A program made the position numbers and the translations under genes. From contig JAEUKX010000078.1 in NCBI GenBank assembly GCA_016794025.1, positions 1-64,000 on the forward strand: DNA of 64,000 nucleotides, read 5' to 3'. How positions within the stretch are numbered: the first letter of the stretch is position 1; each line of letters opens with the position of its first letter. A model generated the notes under the pieces. That model made no database searches. It saw nothing but the letters and a program-made list of their open reading frames with translations, and was not told where the DNA came from. This document shows, in pieces, positions 7,865 through 17,468 of the stretch. The stretch is from Rhodospirillales bacterium (GTDB lineage: Bacteria > Pseudomonadota > Alphaproteobacteria > CACIAM-22H2).

Positions 7865-8238
7865 TGCGGTGATGACGCTGGATGCCGCCGGATGTCGTAT
7901 CGGATCTCATAGTTCTCATCGAGGTGTCGGTCGTGAATTTTCGGTGTCTTTTCGGAATAGGCGCAGACTGTCCCGAAAGGCAGGACCAGAATATCGTTCG
8001 TCAGGCATGCACATGGGCAGAAGTTGCGCTACGAGGCAACCGCAATTCGCGCCGCGTCCGCCTCGACGACTCATCCGATCATGCCGGCTGGCTTCCGCGA
8101 CTTGACGCAAGCAAGCGTTGCCGTTCAACTGATCGCGTAGTCGGGCCATAAGGCTGATGGCTCGTTTCCAGACTTTTAGTGGCGGAGTTCGAACTTGACC
8201 CTCGGTGCAGGCGGCATTTTCAGGTGGCCGGCGGCTGC
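7865..8238. other. Intergenic region before the formate dehydrogenase accessory genes
   Basis: About 370 bp between the divergent permease and DUF4444 genes. Open frames exist on both strands (for example 7916-8149 minus), but none shows a recognisable domain, a good ribosome site or coding-like character. The promoters for both units must lie here; I cannot place a convincing -35/-10 pair or operator. Confidence 0.3.
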
Positions 8239-8967
8239 ATGCTGCAAACCTCGATGAATCGCGGTCTGGCGGACGATTGGCCGAGTTTCCCGCCCGGATA
8301 CGAGGTGCGGGTTTGCCTGGACGATCCCTTCGGGACGGCGATCGCGGCTGCGAAGGATGGGGCCGAGGATGGTCTCCTGCTATGGCAGGATCGGTCGGAT
8401 TGTCTGAATGCAGCCATGGTACTCCGGCCGCTGGATCCGCTGCGCCGCGCGATGACCCTCAGCCAGGTCGGTCTCCTTGGCCTGCTCGACGGATTTGCGA
8501 CCCTTGCGCCGCCGGAGACCCCGGCGGGGCTCATGTGGCCGGACCGACTGCTCGTGAACGACGGTGTCGTTGGCGGGGTACGCGTGTCCCACGGACCTCT
8601 CGTCGGGAAGCTCGAATTCGACGACGTGCCCGATTGGCTGGTGCTCGGCTTTACGATTCGGATCCAGACGGACAGCGGCGGCCGTGAGCCCGGCGAGCAG
8701 GTGGAATACACATCTTTGTTCGAGGAAGGCTGCGGCGAAATCACGCCGAGACTGCTGATCGAAAGTTTCTCGCGACATTTTCTCGGATGGCTCGACCGCT
8801 GGCAGGAACAGGGATATGAGCCCGTCCGGCGGACCGCCGAGCGACATCAGGCCGAGAAGCGGCTCCGCCTCGAGCCGCACGGGGATGCAAGTCTCGACAA
8901 TATCCGCCAGGATCTCGTCGCCGCCCTTCGGCGGCCGAGCTGGTCCTTGCCGGAGTCGGGCGCATGA
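8239..8967 (+). CDS. DUF4444 / biotin-lipoate ligase-like protein
   Basis: About 242 residues. The sequence WPSFPPGYEVRVCLDDPFGTAIAAAKDGAEDGLLLWQDRSDCLNAAMVLRPLDPL and the later WPDRLLVNDGVVGGVRV resemble the divergent biotin/lipoate-protein-ligase fold followed by a C-terminal DUF4444 domain. This family recurs beside formate dehydrogenase genes in alphaproteobacteria; its role is unproven, presumably in enzyme maturation. I use the ATG at 8239; a GTG at 8179 would add 20 residues that do not look conserved. It starts a tight run of five accessory genes, and its stop overlaps the next start (ATGA). Confidence 0.7.
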   Translation: MLQTSMNRGLADDWPSFPPGYEVRVCLDDPFGTAIAAAKDGAEDGLLLWQDRSDCLNAAMVLRPLDPLRRAMTLSQVGLLGLLDGFATLAPPETPAGLMWPDRLLVNDGVVGGVRVSHGPLVGKLEFDDVPDWLVLGFTIRIQTDSGGREPGEQVEYTSLFEEGCGEITPRLLIESFSRHFLGWLDRWQEQGYEPVRRTAERHQAEKRLRLEPHGDASLDNIRQDLVAALRRPSWSLPESGA

Positions 8968-9443
8968 AAATGCCGCGCTGCGTCCGGTTCGATGAGTCCG
9001 ACGCGCGAGTGTTTCCGAAGGCTGCGGACCCGGGGGAGTGGGCTATTCCCGGCGGTTTTGTTTTTGCCGATGCAGATCCTGCCGCGCTCACGCAAAGTCA
9101 GCGGCAGGCCTTTGCCAACGGATTTCTGGGGTTGACGAGCTTCGGTTGGTCGACGCTTGCGAGCGTTGCGACGATCTCAGACGTTGAATTCGCGGTGCTC
9201 GCTACTTCGTTGGCGGAGCACCTGCGGGATGTGTATGGGGCTCCGGATATTGCAGTGGCGGAAGCCGCAGCACGCGAGGAACTGGCTTACGCCGCCAGTC
9301 TCTGTGAGCATCCGGTCAACACGCTGTTGAGCCTGAACAGGAAGATCGAAGGCGAGCACATGGTCGAGCAGTTCCGTGTTGTTCCGTCTCCGGGTGACCG
9401 GCAGCATGCCAGAATTTGGGAACTCCACTCCGATGAACAATGA
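8964..9443 (+). CDS. DUF6505 family protein
   Basis: 159-residue soluble protein without signal peptide or membrane segment, beginning MKMPRCVRFDESDARVFPKAADPGEWAIPGGFVF. It matches my recollection of DUF6505 proteins, which accompany formate dehydrogenase clusters in Rhizobiales. The ATG sits in an ATGA overlap with the preceding gene, so translation is coupled. No catalytic motif is visible. By context it belongs to the formate dehydrogenase maturation set. Confidence 0.65.
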   Translation: MKMPRCVRFDESDARVFPKAADPGEWAIPGGFVFADADPAALTQSQRQAFANGFLGLTSFGWSTLASVATISDVEFAVLATSLAEHLRDVYGAPDIAVAEAAAREELAYAASLCEHPVNTLLSLNRKIEGEHMVEQFRVVPSPGDRQHARIWELHSDEQ

Positions 9444-10464
9444 GTCGGCTGCCACAGATTTCTGGCTGTCCAGCGGCTACAATCTGCTCGACCGCAACGA
9501 GGACGGCCGTCTTGTCGTCACGGCCGACTTTATCCGGGCATACCTGAGCCGGCCGGAGATGATGCCCCCCGAGGAGGCATGCGATGCGGAGCGTGCGCTG
9601 CACGCGCGATTGCTTCGTGATCCGGAGCGGATTGTTGACGCGCGCGACCTAGTCGACCTGGCCGACGTGGATGCGCGAGAGAATTTCGCGGTCTTTCTGC
9701 GGTTTCGTGAGTTGCTGCTAAAAAGTGGCACCGTGGAAGCCGCGTACCTTGCCCTGTTCCGTCCGGACGCGCCGCAGATACCGGCTCTGTTCATCGACCA
9801 GCTTGTGGCCGTAATCCTGCGCGGAATGCTGGACGGATGTGCCGATGCCTTTCAGCTGCGTGCGGCCGAGTTGTTCTTTCGTATCCAGCGCGTATCGTTG
9901 CACGAAGGTTCGATCCTGCTGGCTGATGAAGAGATCGTGGAGGGTTTGGGCCGAACCGGCGGCTTGGGGGCATTGGGCGCGCTTGTCATGCAGGCCGGAG
10001 CGCCGCTGCGCCAAGTCGAGATGGACATCCTCACGCGCGAGAATTCGTCCCAATACTGGCTGCGCAGTGATCGGCACGATATGGTGCTGGACATCAGCTT
10101 TGCCAGATCGGGTCAGGATGCGTTCGCGCGTGTTGTCGAGGCTTGGGTCCGTCACCTTTCCGGCGCCGAGGTGCAGGTTCAACCGGTCCAGACGATACGT
10201 GACGAGCGTTGGGTTTGGCATATCGGCCTCGACGCGGAGGCCAACGCAATCATGAATGCGCTTTACGAAGGCCAGGACGTTTCGCCGGAACGACTGAAAA
10301 ACGTACTGGCGCTTTTCCGGCTCGAGTTTCGGGATGCCAGCCTGATGCTGCCGCGTGTCGCTGGTCGCCCCGTCTATTTGGCGCTTGGTCAGAGTTCGGA
10401 CGGCACGTTGCGTATGAAGCCACAGAACTTGGTGGTAAACTTGCCGCTCAACGCCGGAAATTGA
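9433..10464 (+). CDS. DUF6352 family protein
   Basis: 343-residue soluble protein starting MNNESAATDFWLSSGYNLLDRNEDGRLVVTADFIRAYLSRPEM, the characteristic opening of DUF6352 proteins found beside formate dehydrogenase genes. No catalytic or metal-binding motif is evident; it is mainly helical, with a later part resembling a beta-rich domain (MVLDISFARSGQDAFARVVEAWVRHLSG). The ATG overlaps the end of the previous gene by 11 bp. Its role is unknown and its place in the maturation set is inferred from the conserved neighbourhood. Confidence 0.65.
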   Translation: MNNESAATDFWLSSGYNLLDRNEDGRLVVTADFIRAYLSRPEMMPPEEACDAERALHARLLRDPERIVDARDLVDLADVDARENFAVFLRFRELLLKSGTVEAAYLALFRPDAPQIPALFIDQLVAVILRGMLDGCADAFQLRAAELFFRIQRVSLHEGSILLADEEIVEGLGRTGGLGALGALVMQAGAPLRQVEMDILTRENSSQYWLRSDRHDMVLDISFARSGQDAFARVVEAWVRHLSGAEVQVQPVQTIRDERWVWHIGLDAEANAIMNALYEGQDVSPERLKNVLALFRLEFRDASLMLPRVAGRPVYLALGQSSDGTLRMKPQNLVVNLPLNAGN

Positions 10465-10470
10465 GCCCCC

Positions 10471-11010
10471 ATGACCACTCCTCCCGGAACTGAGACCCGA
10501 CGGATCGGCGTGATTCTGGAGCGCCGAAAGGCGACCAGCCCGTGGATCGAACACGTGTGGCGCCCGGTGCAGGTCCTCGACGGGACGCCGCAATCCGAAC
10601 CCTGGACTGTTGTTGCCGAAGGTGACGGCTGGGTACATTTCTACGCCGGTGCCGCCGAAGTCTCGCTCTACCGCCACGAAAGCGAGACCTACGCGTACAA
10701 TCTCAACAGTCGCATGCCGGCCGTCTGGATCTTCCTTCGAAATAGCCCGGAACCGGGCAGAGTTGAGCTTTACGGCGCCTCGGTCGATCCGGGTGAAGCC
10801 CATGCGCATAATGACACCGGCGATGACATCGTCGATTTCGTGCCGATGCCTGACGGCATGCGCGAATGGATGCGGGGATATATCGAGCGAAATCCGCCGC
10901 GCACGGAGCGCTACAAGCGCAAGCGGGACAAGGCTGATCCCGAAGCGCTGGCGCGGCGTGCAGGTCTCTACGCCAGCGATCCGCTCCGCCAGACACCGGA
11001 GGACGAGTGA
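10471..11010 (+). CDS. DUF3305 domain-containing protein
   Basis: 179-residue cytoplasmic protein. The segment RRIGVILERRKATSPWIEHVWRPVQVLDG and the following beta-rich body with LYRHESETYAYNLNSRMPAVWIFLR are typical of DUF3305, a family tied almost exclusively to molybdenum/tungsten formate dehydrogenase clusters. It precedes the DUF3306 gene, its usual partner, with which it overlaps by one base. The function is unknown; presumably assembly or maturation of formate dehydrogenase. Confidence 0.75.
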   Translation: MTTPPGTETRRIGVILERRKATSPWIEHVWRPVQVLDGTPQSEPWTVVAEGDGWVHFYAGAAEVSLYRHESETYAYNLNSRMPAVWIFLRNSPEPGRVELYGASVDPGEAHAHNDTGDDIVDFVPMPDGMREWMRGYIERNPPRTERYKRKRDKADPEALARRAGLYASDPLRQTPEDE

Positions 11011-11639
11011 TGAGCGCTGGCGGCTTCCTGTCTCGCTGGTCGCGGCGCAAGGCGGAGGTCCGCGAGGCCGAGGCACGCGCGGCCGAAAAAAAGGCCGTGA
11101 CCGAGGCAGCAAAACCGCAAAAGCCGGATGCCGAGCCGGCAATCGATCTATCGGCTCTGCCGCCAGTCGAATCATTGACCGCGGAGAGCGACTACACCGT
11201 TTTTCTTGCCAAGGGTGTGCCGGAAGCCTTGCGGACTACGGCTCTGCGAAAACTTTGGCTGACGGATCCCAGCGTTCGAGACTATCGGCCATTAGTTGAG
11301 TACAACTGGGATTTCAATGCGCCAGGCTACGGCGAACTGCTGTCGAGCGACGACGTGCAGAAGTTCGTGACGCAAGTGATGTCCGGTCACCCGCGCGAAG
11401 AGAAGCGGCCAGTCGATCCAGTCAATGAGGACGACGCCAAGACGGCGGCATCGCAAGAACCGCAGCCAAGCCCCCCTGCGCCGGACTCGCTCTTGGCCGC
11501 CGTCGATTCGGAGCCGGAGCCGGACCAAGTTGCCGACGCTGTTGCTCCGGCAATCCCTGTTCGTATTGAAAAATCTGCCCTGGAACCTTCGCCTGAGCCC
11601 ATACCGCGGCGCCGCCACGGTGGCGCTATTCCGACTTGA
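11010..11639 (+). CDS. DUF3306 domain-containing protein
   Basis: 209-residue protein. It opens MSAGGFLSRWSRRKAEVREAEA, a charged helical stretch, followed by the DUF3306 core (DYTVFLAKGVPEALRTTALRKLWLTDPSVRDYRPLVEYNWDFNAPGYGEL) and a long Pro/Glu/Asp-rich disordered tail. I chose the ATG at 11010 over the GTG three bases earlier because GGAGG lies 7 bases upstream. The family pairs with DUF3305 in formate dehydrogenase clusters. The acidic tail suggests a flexible partner-binding arm (inference). Confidence 0.75.
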   Translation: MSAGGFLSRWSRRKAEVREAEARAAEKKAVTEAAKPQKPDAEPAIDLSALPPVESLTAESDYTVFLAKGVPEALRTTALRKLWLTDPSVRDYRPLVEYNWDFNAPGYGELLSSDDVQKFVTQVMSGHPREEKRPVDPVNEDDAKTAASQEPQPSPPAPDSLLAAVDSEPEPDQVADAVAPAIPVRIEKSALEPSPEPIPRRRHGGAIPT

Positions 11640-11730
11640 CGCAATGATCGATGCGGCGAGACGGCGAGAGCCAGGTCGAGCTTGCGTGGTTCGTTGTTGA
11701 AATGACCCGGACAATTTGGTTTGCACAATA

Positions 11731-11753
11731 TATTGCGAGTCATTCTCAATAAT
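11731..11753. promoter_or_regulatory. Fur-box-like element upstream of the HTH-TorD/fdh genes
   Basis: ATTGCGAGTCATTCTCAAT (within 11731-11750) is a near-palindrome and resembles Fur sites of the GCGAATnATTCTCA type known from proteobacteria. It lies about 120 bp upstream of the HTH-TorD start, just after a possible -35 (TTGCAC at 11721). Formate dehydrogenase is rich in Fe-S clusters and heme, so iron control would make sense, but this is a single resemblance and unproven. Confidence 0.3.
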
Positions 11754-11798
11754 TTCAGCGCCGATTTTCGCACCTGCGAAGTGGATTGCTCATAATTT

Positions 11799-11844
11799 CA
11801 ATCGGTTCGTGGCGTTTGATCTTTGCAACACGACAAACCGATTG
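11799..11844. promoter_or_regulatory. Inverted repeat upstream of HTH-TorD, candidate autoregulatory operator
   Basis: Two inverted copies of the 12-mer AC(A/G)AACCGATTG, identical at 11 of 12 positions, lie at about 11799-11810 (inverted) and 11833-11844. The spacing is roughly three to four helical turns, and the site ends 24 bp before the ATG of a gene that encodes its own helix-turn-helix. This is the obvious place for that protein to bind; binding itself is inferred. Confidence 0.4.
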
Positions 11845-11868
11845 GTAGGCTACCTGTAGGGAGGAATC

Positions 11869-12690
11869 ATGCGCGAAGCGCTGTCCAAGGCAGTGGAACT
11901 CGTAGGCGGGCAGACGCAGCTCGCCCGTCTTCTTGGCGTCAAGCAGTCGCATGTTTGGCACTGGCTTAACCGTGCAGAGCGTCTTCCGGCCGAATTCGTG
12001 TTGCCAATCGAAAATGCGACGGGCGGGCAGGTGAATCGTCACATGCTGCGTCCAGACCTTTTCCCGGACAGTTCGGCGCCTCACGCACGGATCGCCGTTG
12101 CGGATGAAGATATGTGGCGCGCGCAGATGTACACGCTGTTTGCCCGCTGTCTCTCGCGCCGGCCGGACGTTGGTCTTCTGACGGCCCTCGGCCAGTTGAC
12201 CGGCGATGGATCTGCGTTGGGCCAGGCGATCACCGAACTTTCGCGTGTTGCGCGGTCCACGTCGATCGAACGCGCGCAGGAAGAGTGGGATGCACTTTTC
12301 GTGGGTCTGGCGCGCGGCGAATTGCTGCCCTACGCGTCTTACTACCGCACGGGGTTCCTTTACGAGCAGCCGCTTGCCAAGCTGCGTGGCGACATGAAGG
12401 AACTTGGCTTCGTCGTCGCTGACGGCGTTTCGGAGCCGGAAGACCACATCGGCGCCCTTTGCGAGATGATGGCCCTGTTGATTGCGGGGGGCGACATCGG
12501 CGGGAAGCCCGCGGCGCCAGCTAGCATCGCGCAACAAGAGCAGTTCTTCCGCACCCATCTTGCACCTTGGGCGGAAAAGTTCTTCGCCGATCTCGAGAAG
12601 GCCGCCAGTGCTTCATTGCTGAAGCCGCTGGGGCGTATCGGGCGGCAGTTCATTGGCATCGAAACACAGGGCTTCGCCCTCGCGGCCTAG
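11869..12690 (+). CDS. Cro/YdaS-type HTH fused to TorD-family chaperone
   Basis: 273-residue two-domain protein. Residues 1-66 are a complete Cro/YdaS-like DNA-binding domain (LVGGQTQLARLLGVKQSHVWHWLN, ending in NRHMLRPDLFPD as stand-alone YdaS proteins do). Residues about 80-270 are a TorD/DmsD-type chaperone, with EEWDALFVGLARGELLPYASYY (139-159) and EPEDHIGALCEMMALL (189-204). TorD proteins bind Tat signal peptides of molybdoenzymes and hold them back until cofactor is inserted; the client here should be FdhA, two genes downstream. The ATG is preceded by GGGAGGA at ideal distance, so the fusion is not a start-site artefact. It may couple enzyme maturation to transcription (inference). Confidence 0.88.
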   Translation: MREALSKAVELVGGQTQLARLLGVKQSHVWHWLNRAERLPAEFVLPIENATGGQVNRHMLRPDLFPDSSAPHARIAVADEDMWRAQMYTLFARCLSRRPDVGLLTALGQLTGDGSALGQAITELSRVARSTSIERAQEEWDALFVGLARGELLPYASYYRTGFLYEQPLAKLRGDMKELGFVVADGVSEPEDHIGALCEMMALLIAGGDIGGKPAAPASIAQQEQFFRTHLAPWAEKFFADLEKAASASLLKPLGRIGRQFIGIETQGFALAA

Positions 12691-12724
12691 GCTGCCGAGA
12701 GCGGAAAATTACGGAGGACCGATC

Positions 12725-12928
12725 ATGAGCAAGCAGGACACGAAGGAAAAACTTGGTCGCCGCGCATTTTTGCGCGGCGCCGGTGTGGGAACTGCGGCCG
12801 CAACCGTTGCCGTCGTGACCGTGGGCTCGACGAAGGTCGAGGCGGCGGAGAACGCTCAGGAGCGCAAGAAGCAGCGCTACAAGGAAACCGACCACGTGAA
12901 GACCTACTACGCCCAGAACCGGCTCTGA
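12725..12928 (+). CDS. Formate dehydrogenase region Tat-targeted small protein
   Basis: 67-residue protein with a twin-arginine signal (LGRRAFLRGAGVGTAAATVAVV) and a short charged mature end, ERKKQRYKETDHVKTYYAQNRL. This matches the small 'formate dehydrogenase region TAT target' family that sits next to fdhA in many proteobacteria. The exact role is unknown; it may be a small subunit or escort in export. The ATG has GGAGG seven bases upstream. It lies 34 bp after the TorD fusion and 47 bp before fdhA, within one transcription unit. Confidence 0.85.
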   Translation: MSKQDTKEKLGRRAFLRGAGVGTAAATVAVVTVGSTKVEAAENAQERKKQRYKETDHVKTYYAQNRL

Positions 12929-12975
12929 GCCGCAGCCACTCACGCGAGCCGCAGGAATTCGGGAGGCCTCACGCC

Positions 12976-15870
12976 ATGTTGATCAAGAAAAGCTCCAGCA
13001 CCAAGAACGCCGCCACGCCGAACCGTCTGGCCGGCGTGCTCGCCGGTTCAGCCCTGGAAACCGTGGATCGCCGCGGTTTCCTGCGCGCCTCGGGCCTTGC
13101 CGCCGGGGGTTTCGCCGCGGTCGGCTCGCTCGGCGGCGGAATGGTCAAGCGCGCTGAGGCTGCCCCGTCGACCGGATCTGCGATCGTGCGAAAGAAGAAC
13201 ATCTGCACGCACTGCTCGGTCGGCTGCACGGTGACGGCGGAAGTCGAAAACGGAGTCTGGGTCGGGCAGGAGCCGACCTGGGAGAGCCCGATCAACCTCG
13301 GCACACACTGTGCGAAGGGCGCTTCGATCCGCGAACTGACGCATGGCGATCGGCGGCTGAAATATCCGATGAAGATGCAGGACGGGAAGTGGGTCCGCAT
13401 CAGCTGGGACCAGGCGATCAACGAAATCGGCGACAAGCTCACCGCTATCCGCCAGAAGTCGGGTCCTGAATCTGTGTACTGGCTCGGGTCGGCAAAGTTC
13501 TCGAACGAGGGCGGCTATCTTTTCCGCAAGTTCGCAGCATTCTGGGGCACGAACAACATCGACCATCAGGCGCGCATCTGCCATTCCACGACCGTCGCGG
13601 GCGTCGCGAACACGTGGGGCTACGGCGCGATGACCAACAGCTACAACGACATCCACAATTCGAAATCTATAATCATCATGGGCGGTAACCCCGCCGAGGC
13701 GCACCCGGTGTCGCTGCAGCATGTTTTGCGCGGCAAAGAGAAGAACAAGGCGCCACTGATCGTGATCGATCCGCGGTTCACCCGCACGGCGGCGCATGCC
13801 ACGGAGTACATGCGCATCCGGCCGGGAACGGACATTCCGACCATCTACGGTCTGCTGTGGCACATTTTCGAGAATGGCTGGGAAGACAAGGATTATATCC
13901 GTCGGCGGGTCTACGGCATGGATGACATCCGCGCCGAAGTCGCCAAGTGGACGCCGGCCGAGGTCGAGCGCGTCACCGGCGTTCCCGGCGAACAGATGAA
14001 GCGTGTTGCCGAGACGTTCGCGAAGAACCGCCCCGGCACGTTGATCTGGTGCATGGGCGTCACCCAGCACACCGTTGGCACGGCCAACGTGCGTGCGCTG
14101 TCGATCCTTCAACTGGCGCTCGGCAATATCGGCGTCGAGGGCGGTGGCGCCAACATCTTCCGCGGCCACTGCAACGTTCAGGGCTGTACGGATCTGGGTC
14201 TCGATGTGACGTCGCTGCCGGCCTATTACGGCTTGGTTGAGGGCGCGTGGCGGCATTGGTGCCGCGTCTGGGGCGTCGACTACAGCTATATGCTCTCGCG
14301 CTTCCAGAGCAAGGCCTTCATGGAAATGAAGGGAATTCCGTCGACCCGCTGGTTTGATGCCGTGCTCGCGGAGAAGAAGGATCTCGAGCAGCCCGACAAC
14401 GTGAAGGCCATGTTCTTTTGGGGCCATGGCGGCAATACCGTGCCGCGCATGCCGGAGATGCGCACCGGCATGGAGAAGGTCGAGCTTATGGTCGTGGTCG
14501 ACCCGCATCCGACGACGGCGGCGGCGTTGCCCGAGCGCAAGAACGGCACCTACCTGCTGCCGGCATGCACCCAGCTCGAAACGCGCGGCTCACGCACGGC
14601 GTCGAACCGGTCGCTCCAGTGGGGCGAGCAGATCGTGAAGCCGATCTTCGAATCGAAGCCCGATCACTGGATCCTCTATAAGCTCGCGCAGAAGCTTGGC
14701 TTCGATAAGGAGATGTTCAAAAACATCAAGATCGATGCGGGCGACGAGCCGAACGTCGAGGACGTGCTTCGCGAAATCAATGCCGGCACGATATCGATCG
14801 GCTACTCCGGCCAGTCGCCAGAGCGCCTGAAGGACCACATGGCCCATCAGGGAGATTTTGATGTCGTGTCGCTGCGCGCCACGAAGGGGCCGCTGAAGGG
14901 CGAGTTCTACGGCCTCCCCTGGCCCTGCTGGGGAACGCCGGCAATGAAGCATCCTGGCACGCACGTCCTCTACAACACGAACCTGCCCGTCAAGGACGGC
15001 GGCGGCGCCTTCCGCGCCCGCTTCGGTGTGGAGCGCAATGGCGTATCGCTTCTGGCGGACGGCTCGTACCCGGTTGGCTCGGAGATCCAGGACGGGCATC
15101 CCGAGTTCACCTACGGCCTGCTCAAGAAGATGGGCTGGGACAAGGAGTTGACCGACGCCGAACGTGCGACGATCGAGCGTATCGGTGGCAATAACCCGGA
15201 CGCTGTCGGCTGGGCGATCGATCTCAGCTGCGGCATCATCCGCGTGTGCATGGCGCACGGCGTGCAGGCGATGGGCAATGCCAAGGCGCGCGCCAATGCA
15301 TTCGGTCTGCCCGATCCGATCCCGGTGCACCGTGAGCCGATCTATACCTCGCGGCGCGATCTGGTGGAGAAGTATCCGGCGATGGCCGATCGCCGCGACT
15401 ACCGCCTGCCGCATCTCGGCAAGAGCATCCAGGACAAGGATGCGAGCAAGGAATTCCCGATGATCCTTACCTCCGGCCGACTGGTCGAGTACGAGGGTGG
15501 CGGCGAAGAAACCCGCTCGAACAAGTGGCTGGCCGAGCTGCAGCAGAACATGTTCGTGGAGATCAATCCAGAAGATGCGGCGCGCCTGAAGATCAAGGAC
15601 GGCCAGGATGTCTGGGTCTACGGTCCGGAAGCGAAGGCCAAAGCCAAGGTCAAGGCGATGGTCACGCAGCGAGTTGGCAAGGGGGTTGCCTTCATGCCGT
15701 TCCACTTCTCGGGCTTCTGGCAGGGCGTGGACCAGCGGAAGAACTACCCGGAAGGAACCGATCCGATCGTTCTGGGCGAATCGGTGAACGGGGTGACGAC
15801 CTATGGGTACGACCCGGTCACGCACATGCACGAGAACAAGGCCACCTTGTGCCGCATCGAGGCGGCCTGA
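12976..15870 (+). CDS. fdhA: Formate dehydrogenase catalytic (alpha) subunit
   Basis: 964-residue periplasmic molybdo- or tungstoenzyme oxidising formate to CO2. Order of features: Tat signal (DRRGFLRASGLAAGGFAAVG, about residues 31-50), a [4Fe-4S] motif with Cys77, Cys80, Cys84 and Cys112, then bis-MGD-binding domains to the C-terminus. The metal ligand and catalytic pair are Cys202-His203 in QARICHSTTVAG, so this is a cysteine (not selenocysteine) enzyme; the codon at 13579 is TGC. GGGAGG precedes the ATG. It is followed by fdhB and fdhC in the order seen in the FdhABC systems of Shewanella and Campylobacter. Confidence 0.96.
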   Translation: MLIKKSSSTKNAATPNRLAGVLAGSALETVDRRGFLRASGLAAGGFAAVGSLGGGMVKRAEAAPSTGSAIVRKKNICTHCSVGCTVTAEVENGVWVGQEPTWESPINLGTHCAKGASIRELTHGDRRLKYPMKMQDGKWVRISWDQAINEIGDKLTAIRQKSGPESVYWLGSAKFSNEGGYLFRKFAAFWGTNNIDHQARICHSTTVAGVANTWGYGAMTNSYNDIHNSKSIIIMGGNPAEAHPVSLQHVLRGKEKNKAPLIVIDPRFTRTAAHATEYMRIRPGTDIPTIYGLLWHIFENGWEDKDYIRRRVYGMDDIRAEVAKWTPAEVERVTGVPGEQMKRVAETFAKNRPGTLIWCMGVTQHTVGTANVRALSILQLALGNIGVEGGGANIFRGHCNVQGCTDLGLDVTSLPAYYGLVEGAWRHWCRVWGVDYSYMLSRFQSKAFMEMKGIPSTRWFDAVLAEKKDLEQPDNVKAMFFWGHGGNTVPRMPEMRTGMEKVELMVVVDPHPTTAAALPERKNGTYLLPACTQLETRGSRTASNRSLQWGEQIVKPIFESKPDHWILYKLAQKLGFDKEMFKNIKIDAGDEPNVEDVLREINAGTISIGYSGQSPERLKDHMAHQGDFDVVSLRATKGPLKGEFYGLPWPCWGTPAMKHPGTHVLYNTNLPVKDGGGAFRARFGVERNGVSLLADGSYPVGSEIQDGHPEFTYGLLKKMGWDKELTDAERATIERIGGNNPDAVGWAIDLSCGIIRVCMAHGVQAMGNAKARANAFGLPDPIPVHREPIYTSRRDLVEKYPAMADRRDYRLPHLGKSIQDKDASKEFPMILTSGRLVEYEGGGEETRSNKWLAELQQNMFVEINPEDAARLKIKDGQDVWVYGPEAKAKAKVKAMVTQRVGKGVAFMPFHFSGFWQGVDQRKNYPEGTDPIVLGESVNGVTTYGYDPVTHMHENKATLCRIEAA

Positions 15871-15893
15871 GCGCCGGATAGGGAGAAAAGATC

Positions 15894-16490
15894 ATGGCTC
15901 GCATGAAATTCCTCTGCGACTCCGAGCGTTGCATCGAGTGCAACGCGTGCGTTACGGCCTGCAAGAACGAGCATGAGGTGCCGTGGGGTATCAATCGCCG
16001 CCGCGTCGTCACGCTGAACGACGGCCAGAAAGGCGAGCGGTCGATTTCCATGGCCTGCATGCATTGCGAGGATGCGCCGTGCATGGCTGTCTGCCCGGTC
16101 GACTGCTTCTACAAGACCGAGGAAGGCGTGGTGCTGCACTCCAAGGACTTGTGCATCGGTTGTGGCTATTGCTTCTATGCCTGCCCGTTCGGAGCGCCGC
16201 AGTATCCGAAGGTCGGCAACTTCGGCAGTCGCGGCAAGATGGACAAGTGCACGTTCTGCGCCGGCGGACCGGAAGCGGACAACAGCAAGGAAGAGTACGC
16301 GAAGTACGGCGCCAACCGCCTTGCCGAAGGCAAGCTGCCGCTTTGCGCCGAGATGTGCTCGACCAAGGCACTTCTCGCGGGCGATGGCGACGTGATCGCG
16401 TCGATCTACAAGGAGCGTGTCAGCCGCCGCGGCTATGGTTCGGGCGCATGGGGTTGGTCGACCGCCTACAAGGGCGGCTTGGGCGCCTGA
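15894..16490 (+). CDS. fdhB: Formate dehydrogenase iron-sulfur (beta) subunit
   Basis: 198-residue electron-transfer subunit with four Cys clusters for four [4Fe-4S] centres: CIECNACVTACKNE, CMHCEDAPCMAVCPVD, CIGCGYCFYACPFG and a split CTFC...C...C set. It passes electrons from FdhA to the cytochrome b subunit. It is short and lacks the C-terminal transmembrane anchor of E. coli FdnH/FdoH, as in the FdhABC type. It has no export signal, so it probably travels with FdhA through Tat. GGGAG lies ahead of the ATG, 23 bp after fdhA. Confidence 0.94.
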   Translation: MARMKFLCDSERCIECNACVTACKNEHEVPWGINRRRVVTLNDGQKGERSISMACMHCEDAPCMAVCPVDCFYKTEEGVVLHSKDLCIGCGYCFYACPFGAPQYPKVGNFGSRGKMDKCTFCAGGPEADNSKEEYAKYGANRLAEGKLPLCAEMCSTKALLAGDGDVIASIYKERVSRRGYGSGAWGWSTAYKGGLGA

Positions 16491-16508
16491 TCAGGGAGGA
16501 TGAAACGC

Positions 16509-17468
16509 ATGACAAATTTCAAGCGAGGCTTCCTGGCCATCTTGGCCCTGATCGCGGTGGCGGCGATTTCGCCGGTATCCGCGCAGCAGCAGCCGCCTGC
16601 CAACAACGACGCGGTCCTGCTCGAGCAGCTCAAGGCGCCCGTGCAGGGTCGCGTGTCCATCCCGGACGCAAAGTCGGGCACGCTGATCCAGCCGCAGGGC
16701 CGCGAGTGGCGCGAGATGCGCGAAGGGCCGCTCAAGTCCGTCGGCGGCTGGCTGCTCGTGCTTGTCGTGCTGGCGCTGGCCGCGTTCATGGCTCTGCGCG
16801 GCCGCATCAAGGTCGATCACGGCATGTCCGGCCGTACGATCGAGCGCTTCAACGGCGTCGAGCGGTTCGCGCACTGGCTGGTCGCGTCCTGCTTCATCGT
16901 GCTGGGATTGAGCGGGCTGAACCTGACGTTCGGACTCTCGATCGTCCGCCCGATCGTCGGACCGGAGGCGTTTGCAAGCCTCACTCAGGCCGGTAAGATC
17001 GCGCACAACTATCTCAGCTTCCCGTTCTGCCTCGGCGTCCTGCTGATGGCGGCGATGTGGATCCGCCACAACATCTTCAATGCGGTCGACGCCGAATGGT
17101 TCGCGCAGGGTGGCGGCCTCCTGAAGAAGGACGTGCATCCGCCGGCCGGAAAGTTCAACGGTGGCCAGAAGGTCCTGTTCTGGCTCGTCGTGCTCGGATC
17201 GGTGGCTCTGGCGGTCAGCGGCTATATGCTGATGTTCCCGTTCTACTTCACCGACATCGCCGGCATGCAGCTGTCGCAGCTGGTGCATGCGATTGCCGGC
17301 ATACTGCTTGTTGCCGTCATCCTGGCGCACATCTATATCGGGTCGATCGGCATGGAAGGCGCCTTCGATGCGATGGGCTCGGGGCAGGTTGATGTCAATT
17401 GGGCCAAGGAGCACCACAGCCTCTGGGTCAAGGAGCAGCTCGGCGGCAAGGCGGCAGCCGACGACTGA
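16509..17468 (+). CDS. fdhC: Formate dehydrogenase cytochrome b (gamma) subunit
   Basis: 319-residue membrane subunit that anchors the complex and feeds electrons to the quinone pool. It has an N-terminal signal (MTNFKRGFLAILALIAVAAISPVSAQQ), then a periplasmic stretch and five hydrophobic segments, with His residues expected for heme b in RFNGVERFAHWLVASCF, IAHNYLSFPFCLG, MWIRHNIFN and LVHAIAGILLVAVILAHIYIG. I prefer the ATG at 16509, which has AGGGAGG nine bases upstream; the in-frame ATG at 16500 abuts that site. The gene closes the fdh operon and is followed by a strong terminator. Confidence 0.93.
   Translation: MTNFKRGFLAILALIAVAAISPVSAQQQPPANNDAVLLEQLKAPVQGRVSIPDAKSGTLIQPQGREWREMREGPLKSVGGWLLVLVVLALAAFMALRGRIKVDHGMSGRTIERFNGVERFAHWLVASCFIVLGLSGLNLTFGLSIVRPIVGPEAFASLTQAGKIAHNYLSFPFCLGVLLMAAMWIRHNIFNAVDAEWFAQGGGLLKKDVHPPAGKFNGGQKVLFWLVVLGSVALAVSGYMLMFPFYFTDIAGMQLSQLVHAIAGILLVAVILAHIYIGSIGMEGAFDAMGSGQVDVNWAKEHHSLWVKEQLGGKAAADD

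Follow-up and report, generated by a model that had tools for sequence, protein, structure and literature searches.

BirA and PutA are bifunctional autorepressor enzymes, in which a catalytic or assembly protein carries an N-terminal DNA-binding domain and represses related genes. In chaperone-coupled export regulation, exemplified by FliT and FlhDC, free chaperone lowers the transcription of client genes, and both BirA and FliT serve as precedents for a logic in which the free and occupied forms of a protein regulate differently. The YdaS_toxin family comprises Cro-type HTH proteins, and its name implies no toxicity for the protein described below. Among the molybdoenzyme chaperones known as REMPs, the text of a survey mentions no HTH, fusion, or role in transcription (Bay et al., 2015; PMC4464133). 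Likewise, the NarJ and TorD papers searched describe no HTH fusion, and nothing relevant emerged from the open literature on TorD in combination with YdaS, an HTH, or regulation. In the initial annotation of the locus, no regulator of the HTH-TorD kind was known to have been described, and none was found in that open literature.

The window, which is the whole stretch of 64,000 nucleotides analyzed here from a Rhodospirillales bacterium, encodes such a fusion (Table 1). The gene adjoins fdhA, encoding a Tat-exported molybdoenzyme, in an arrangement kept in relatives, and a conserved set of DUF6505, DUF6352, DUF3305, and DUF3306 genes lies upstream. Together with a BPL/LplA-like gene, these occupy 8179-11639 of the window and accompany fdh operons across Alphaproteobacteria. 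In a comparison with two other loci (L178 and L063), the fdh region of the window (8179-17468) was far closer to that of Ferrovibrio (FdhA 91%, FdhB 97%), and its FdhA reached only 66% against the genome’s own genus. Horizontal transfer, a mis-binned contig, or a misplaced assembly could each account for this.

Table 1. Features of the HTH-TorD gene, its promoter region, and the fdh operon in the window.
Feature	Position	Strand	Basis
Inverted repeat proposed in the initial annotation, 14-base arms, 2 mismatches	11799..11844	+	
Inferred sigma-70-like promoter: TTGCAA (11823-11828), 17-base spacer, TAGGCT (11846-11851)	11823..11851	+	
Predicted operator ACAAACCGATTGGT (consensus ACAAA-N4-TTTGT)	11833..11846	+	Comparative dyad search
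Ribosome-binding site AGGGAGG before ATG start	11858..11864	+	
HTH-TorD fusion gene, 273 aa, first gene of fdhABC operon	11869..12690	+	ORF and Pfam
Cro/YdaS-type HTH domain, aa 1-66; recognition-helix region KQSHVWHWLN	11869..12066	+	PF15943, 3bd1 match, kept in relatives
TorD/NarJ-family chaperone domain, about aa 79-273	12103..12687	+	PF02613, YcdY/DmsD fold match, invariant columns
Small Tat-target protein of fdh regions	12725..12928	+	TIGR02811
fdhA, formate dehydrogenase alpha, N-terminal Tat motif RRGFLRASG; presumed client of the chaperone	12976..15870	+	
fdhB, Fe-S subunit, FDH3 beta type	15894..16490	+	Type by synteny with annotated relative
fdhC, gamma cytochrome b subunit	16500..17468	+	TIGR01583

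Both halves of the protein are well defined. Pfam places YdaS_toxin (PF15943) at aa 5-66 (E 4.7e-23; 81 bits against a cut-off of 30) and Nitrate_red_del/TorD (PF02613) at aa 115-239 (E 1.9e-31; 109 bits against a cut-off of 22.2). An AlphaFold model (mean pLDDT 92) divides cleanly into two domains; aa 2-67 align in structure with the Xfaso 1 prophage Cro 3bd1 (Z 12.4, rmsd 1.2, 65 residues), and aa 76-273 form the all-helical REMP fold (YcdY 9m26, Z 20.0; DmsD, Z 18.4). A complete HTH joined in frame to a full TorD domain, behind a good ribosome site at the ATG, had been read from the DNA at the outset, and Pfam, the model, and relatives agree on it. The fusion is real, as the same in-frame joining recurs in dozens of genomes and is no isolated gene-fusion artefact. 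The TorD domain carries the conserved motifs E-P-E-D-H and PYASYYxTGF. Because the TorD signature residues are invariant in fused and unfused members alike, and because the protein is the sole TorD-family match in its own genome (assembly 87% complete), it is very likely still a chaperone.

A survey of relatives, the class, orders, and the phylum, with matches clustered by distinct sequence, found the HTH and TorD pair in other fdh clusters, where the initial annotation had suggested looking for it: Alphaproteobacteria yielded 49 distinct fusions in which the HTH is conserved, along with many TorD-only orthologues. All aligned members matched the TorD family (78/78), and 43 of the 78 also matched YdaS. 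Conservation of the HTH extends across many genera (HMM E 1e-28 to 1e-35); orthologues either retain a good HTH or are without the domain, and the uniform loss of HTH residues that would have spoken against a regulator is not seen. The fused gene of Bradyrhizobium sp. 131 lies beside fdh3B under a record name of just “molecular chaperone TorD family protein.” When 385 alphaproteobacterial genomes were screened separately for the family, strong YdaS matches occurred at 20 places, consisting of 10 TorD fusions, one Nnr fusion, one MurA fusion, and eight short open frames. About eight changes of HTH state are needed on the TorD tree, of which supported branches force only two. A separate HTH gene next to TorD-only operons was considered and rejected, with no HTH match in the TorD-only flanks examined, and GRWEASL, which begins three of the TorD-only frames near the N-terminus, most likely reflects translation of a Shine-Dalgarno sequence rather than a domain.

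Strong comparative evidence for a regulatory role comes from the DNA in front of the fused genes. An unbiased dyad search (16,384 patterns with five-base half-sites and spacers of 0-15, over the 150 bases preceding each non-redundant fused gene) returned ACAAA-N4-TTTGT as the best pattern for the HTH type of the window (11/11) and CATAG-N7-CTATG for a second type (21/24), against a best count of four for any dyad pattern in 15 dinucleotide shuffles. When every locus was scanned allowing up to one mismatch, the two palindromes were found at 15/15 and 31/34 genes of the matching HTH type, respectively; crosswise, sites of the other type were found at 0/15 and 2/34. Neither palindrome was present upstream of TorD-only controls at the same threshold (0/54). 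The recognition-helix regions differ by type, with KQxxVWHWLNxA in the window type and AQPSVSxW, four residues shorter, in the other. Recognition-helix types thus differ as the predicted operators do, and operator type follows HTH type.

In the tree set, a site was present at 46 of 49 fused versus one of 66 unfused loci, raw figures that kinship among the sequences inflates, the independent pairs on supported branches being too few for a phylogeny-corrected sign test. The lone unfused locus with a site is one mismatch off and looks like chance, and three fused loci have no site within one mismatch. Nevertheless, chance is implausible despite relatedness because of the divergent groups, the switch in operator, and the TorD-only controls. 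Operator near-matches elsewhere in eight genomes were not commoner than a reversed control pattern, which gives no sign of a larger regulon, no second recurrent target emerged in the genomes scanned, and near-matches across the window were at chance level in number.

The proposed promoter of the window is a weak consensus match that a stricter scan missed, and its position is kept in close relatives; the operator sits inside its 17-base spacer. The operator center fell within a TTG-N16..18-TANNNT spacer at 21 of 46 loci, compared with about three expected for random positions. In the Telmatospirillum group, sites lie near -26 and -250 relative to the start, with no evident spacer. The inverted repeat singled out in the initial annotation exists, and it shares its right-hand part with the conserved operator, but its left arm is not conserved. 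As an operator, the full 46-base repeat was rejected in favor of the 11833-11846 site that it overlaps, which is a palindrome in its own right and the only part conserved. Further upstream, TGCGAGTCATTCTCA (11734-11748) comes near the Fur-box-type dyad TGAGAAT-N-ATTCTCA, and degenerate Fur-box-like forms occur at -118 to -135 in Ferrovibrio-type relatives, hinting at possible iron control of the same fdh promoter.

We consider it probable (roughly 0.83) that the HTH-TorD protein is both a chaperone for the formate dehydrogenase of its own operon and a repressor of that operon. DNA binding and fdh autorepression are the most economical reading because of the operator data. Control of its own promoter by a DNA-binding chaperone, as first suggested, gains support from the kept HTH, the type-matched operators, and their absence where the HTH is lacking, all of which are comparisons of sequence. 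The Cro-like N-terminal domain would bind ACAAACCGATTGGT between the -35 and -10 of the fdh promoter, presumably as a dimer, and the bound protein would block RNA polymerase. Build-up of the chaperone would then reduce further synthesis of both chaperone and enzyme.

Other HTH fusions were also encountered. A 586-aa frame (L025; G038:C86) joins a YdaS HTH to Nnr, an NAD(P)H-hydrate epimerase/dehydratase; GTAAG-N5-CTTAC follows closely after TTGACA, inside the -35/-10 region of its own promoter. The longest dyad there (11-base arms) is distinct from this palindrome and was set aside as an operator since it looks like a terminator. In L137 (1005-2492, minus strand), a YdaS HTH is fused to MurA (EPSP_synthase), and TTACTAA-TTTT-TTAGTAA lies between its own -35 and -10. 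L040 (G247:C87) carries an XRE-type HTH (Pfam HTH_31, HTH_3) on the same TorD chaperone, and the palindrome TGCATCG-CGCC-CGATGCA follows TTGACG there; L034, from another member of that genus, combines a YdaS-type HTH with a CATAG site. The TorD domain of L040 groups with TorD-only proteins, and so L040 probably represents a separate fusion. With arms of 7 bases, a length reached in 29/500 shuffles for each, the palindromes of L040 and L137 are weak taken alone, and that of L040 is not significant. The addition of a phage Cro domain to a cellular protein, capping the level of that protein, would explain all cases, HTH-TorD included, and client occupancy could have been added to it.

In an extra step added to autorepression, proposed in the initial annotation, the TorD domain could report free FdhA precursor by changing DNA binding. 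Precursor held on TorD might weaken binding, leaving repression to the free chaperone and lifting it once the chaperone is occupied, or the occupied chaperone might instead be a co-repressor. This extension is attractive but tentative, and we lean somewhat against it. The TorD domain is intact with invariant signature residues, the client gene shares an operon with the chaperone at every cluster inspected, and at least one independent XRE-type HTH fusion to TorD (L040) suggests that coupling has been repeatedly favored. However, Nnr and MurA carry the same HTH and lack a client of this kind. Plain autoregulation suffices for the data, since those two fusions have palindromes at their own promoters as well.

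The closest standalone relatives of the HTH include phage or prophage Cro/YdaS proteins, as would be expected of a captured prophage cro that survives as a relic and no longer binds DNA, yet the conservation of the HTH over many genera and the HTH-specific operators of the tree set largely refute this idea, which we regard as highly improbable. The palindromes could alternatively be sites of another fdh regulator, with the HTH acting elsewhere, and their function is indeed deduced from position and conservation alone; this is unlikely, as site type tracks HTH type and sites are absent where the HTH is missing, even when the fdh promoters compared come from the same families. Activation of the fdh operon by the HTH-TorD protein would suit some sites of the second group, which are placed at roughly -90 to -120 relative to the start codon with no evident promoter. 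Wherever a promoter can be proposed, however, the site falls between -35 and -10, a placement typical of steric repression, and we doubt that the protein is an activator.

FDH3-type formate dehydrogenase operons of Alphaproteobacteria now have a clear predicted operator and a candidate regulator, and a metalloenzyme chaperone is very probably a transcription factor too. One protein and a 14-base site are enough for a direct test of feedback from maturation state to transcription. If such feedback exists, which is far from assured, the fusion would be a one-protein maturation sensor in which repression depends on whether apo-FdhA or its Tat signal peptide occupies the chaperone, and transcription of chaperone and client would be tuned to the assembly and export state of the molybdoenzyme. 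The parallel Nnr and MurA fusions suggest that grafting of a phage Cro domain is a recurrent route to autorepressors.

Compared with described systems, the window protein has the same chaperone domain, fold, and signature residues as the TorD/DmsD/NarJ/YcdY REMPs, and members of the TorD-fdh branch are found in the same fdh operon with DUF3305/DUF3306 and the small Tat protein. Described REMPs are without a DNA-binding domain, whereas the window protein has one. Its HTH corresponds in sequence and fold to the Cro/YdaS phage repressors (Xfaso1 Cro 3bd1, YdaS of CP-933P, HK639 Cro), which use a palindromic operator at their own promoter, as predicted for HTH-TorD. The phage proteins are standalone, while the HTH of the window forms one protein with a chaperone and is encoded in a metabolic operon of the chromosome. 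BirA and PutA are comparable in architecture, but their domains are unrelated and HTH-TorD is a molybdoenzyme chaperone, whose sequence carries no signal of control by a ligand. With FliT/FlhDC, HTH-TorD may share the logic by which free chaperone leads to less client transcription; however, FliT acts on a separate activator protein, whereas the HTH-TorD chaperone carries the HTH itself.
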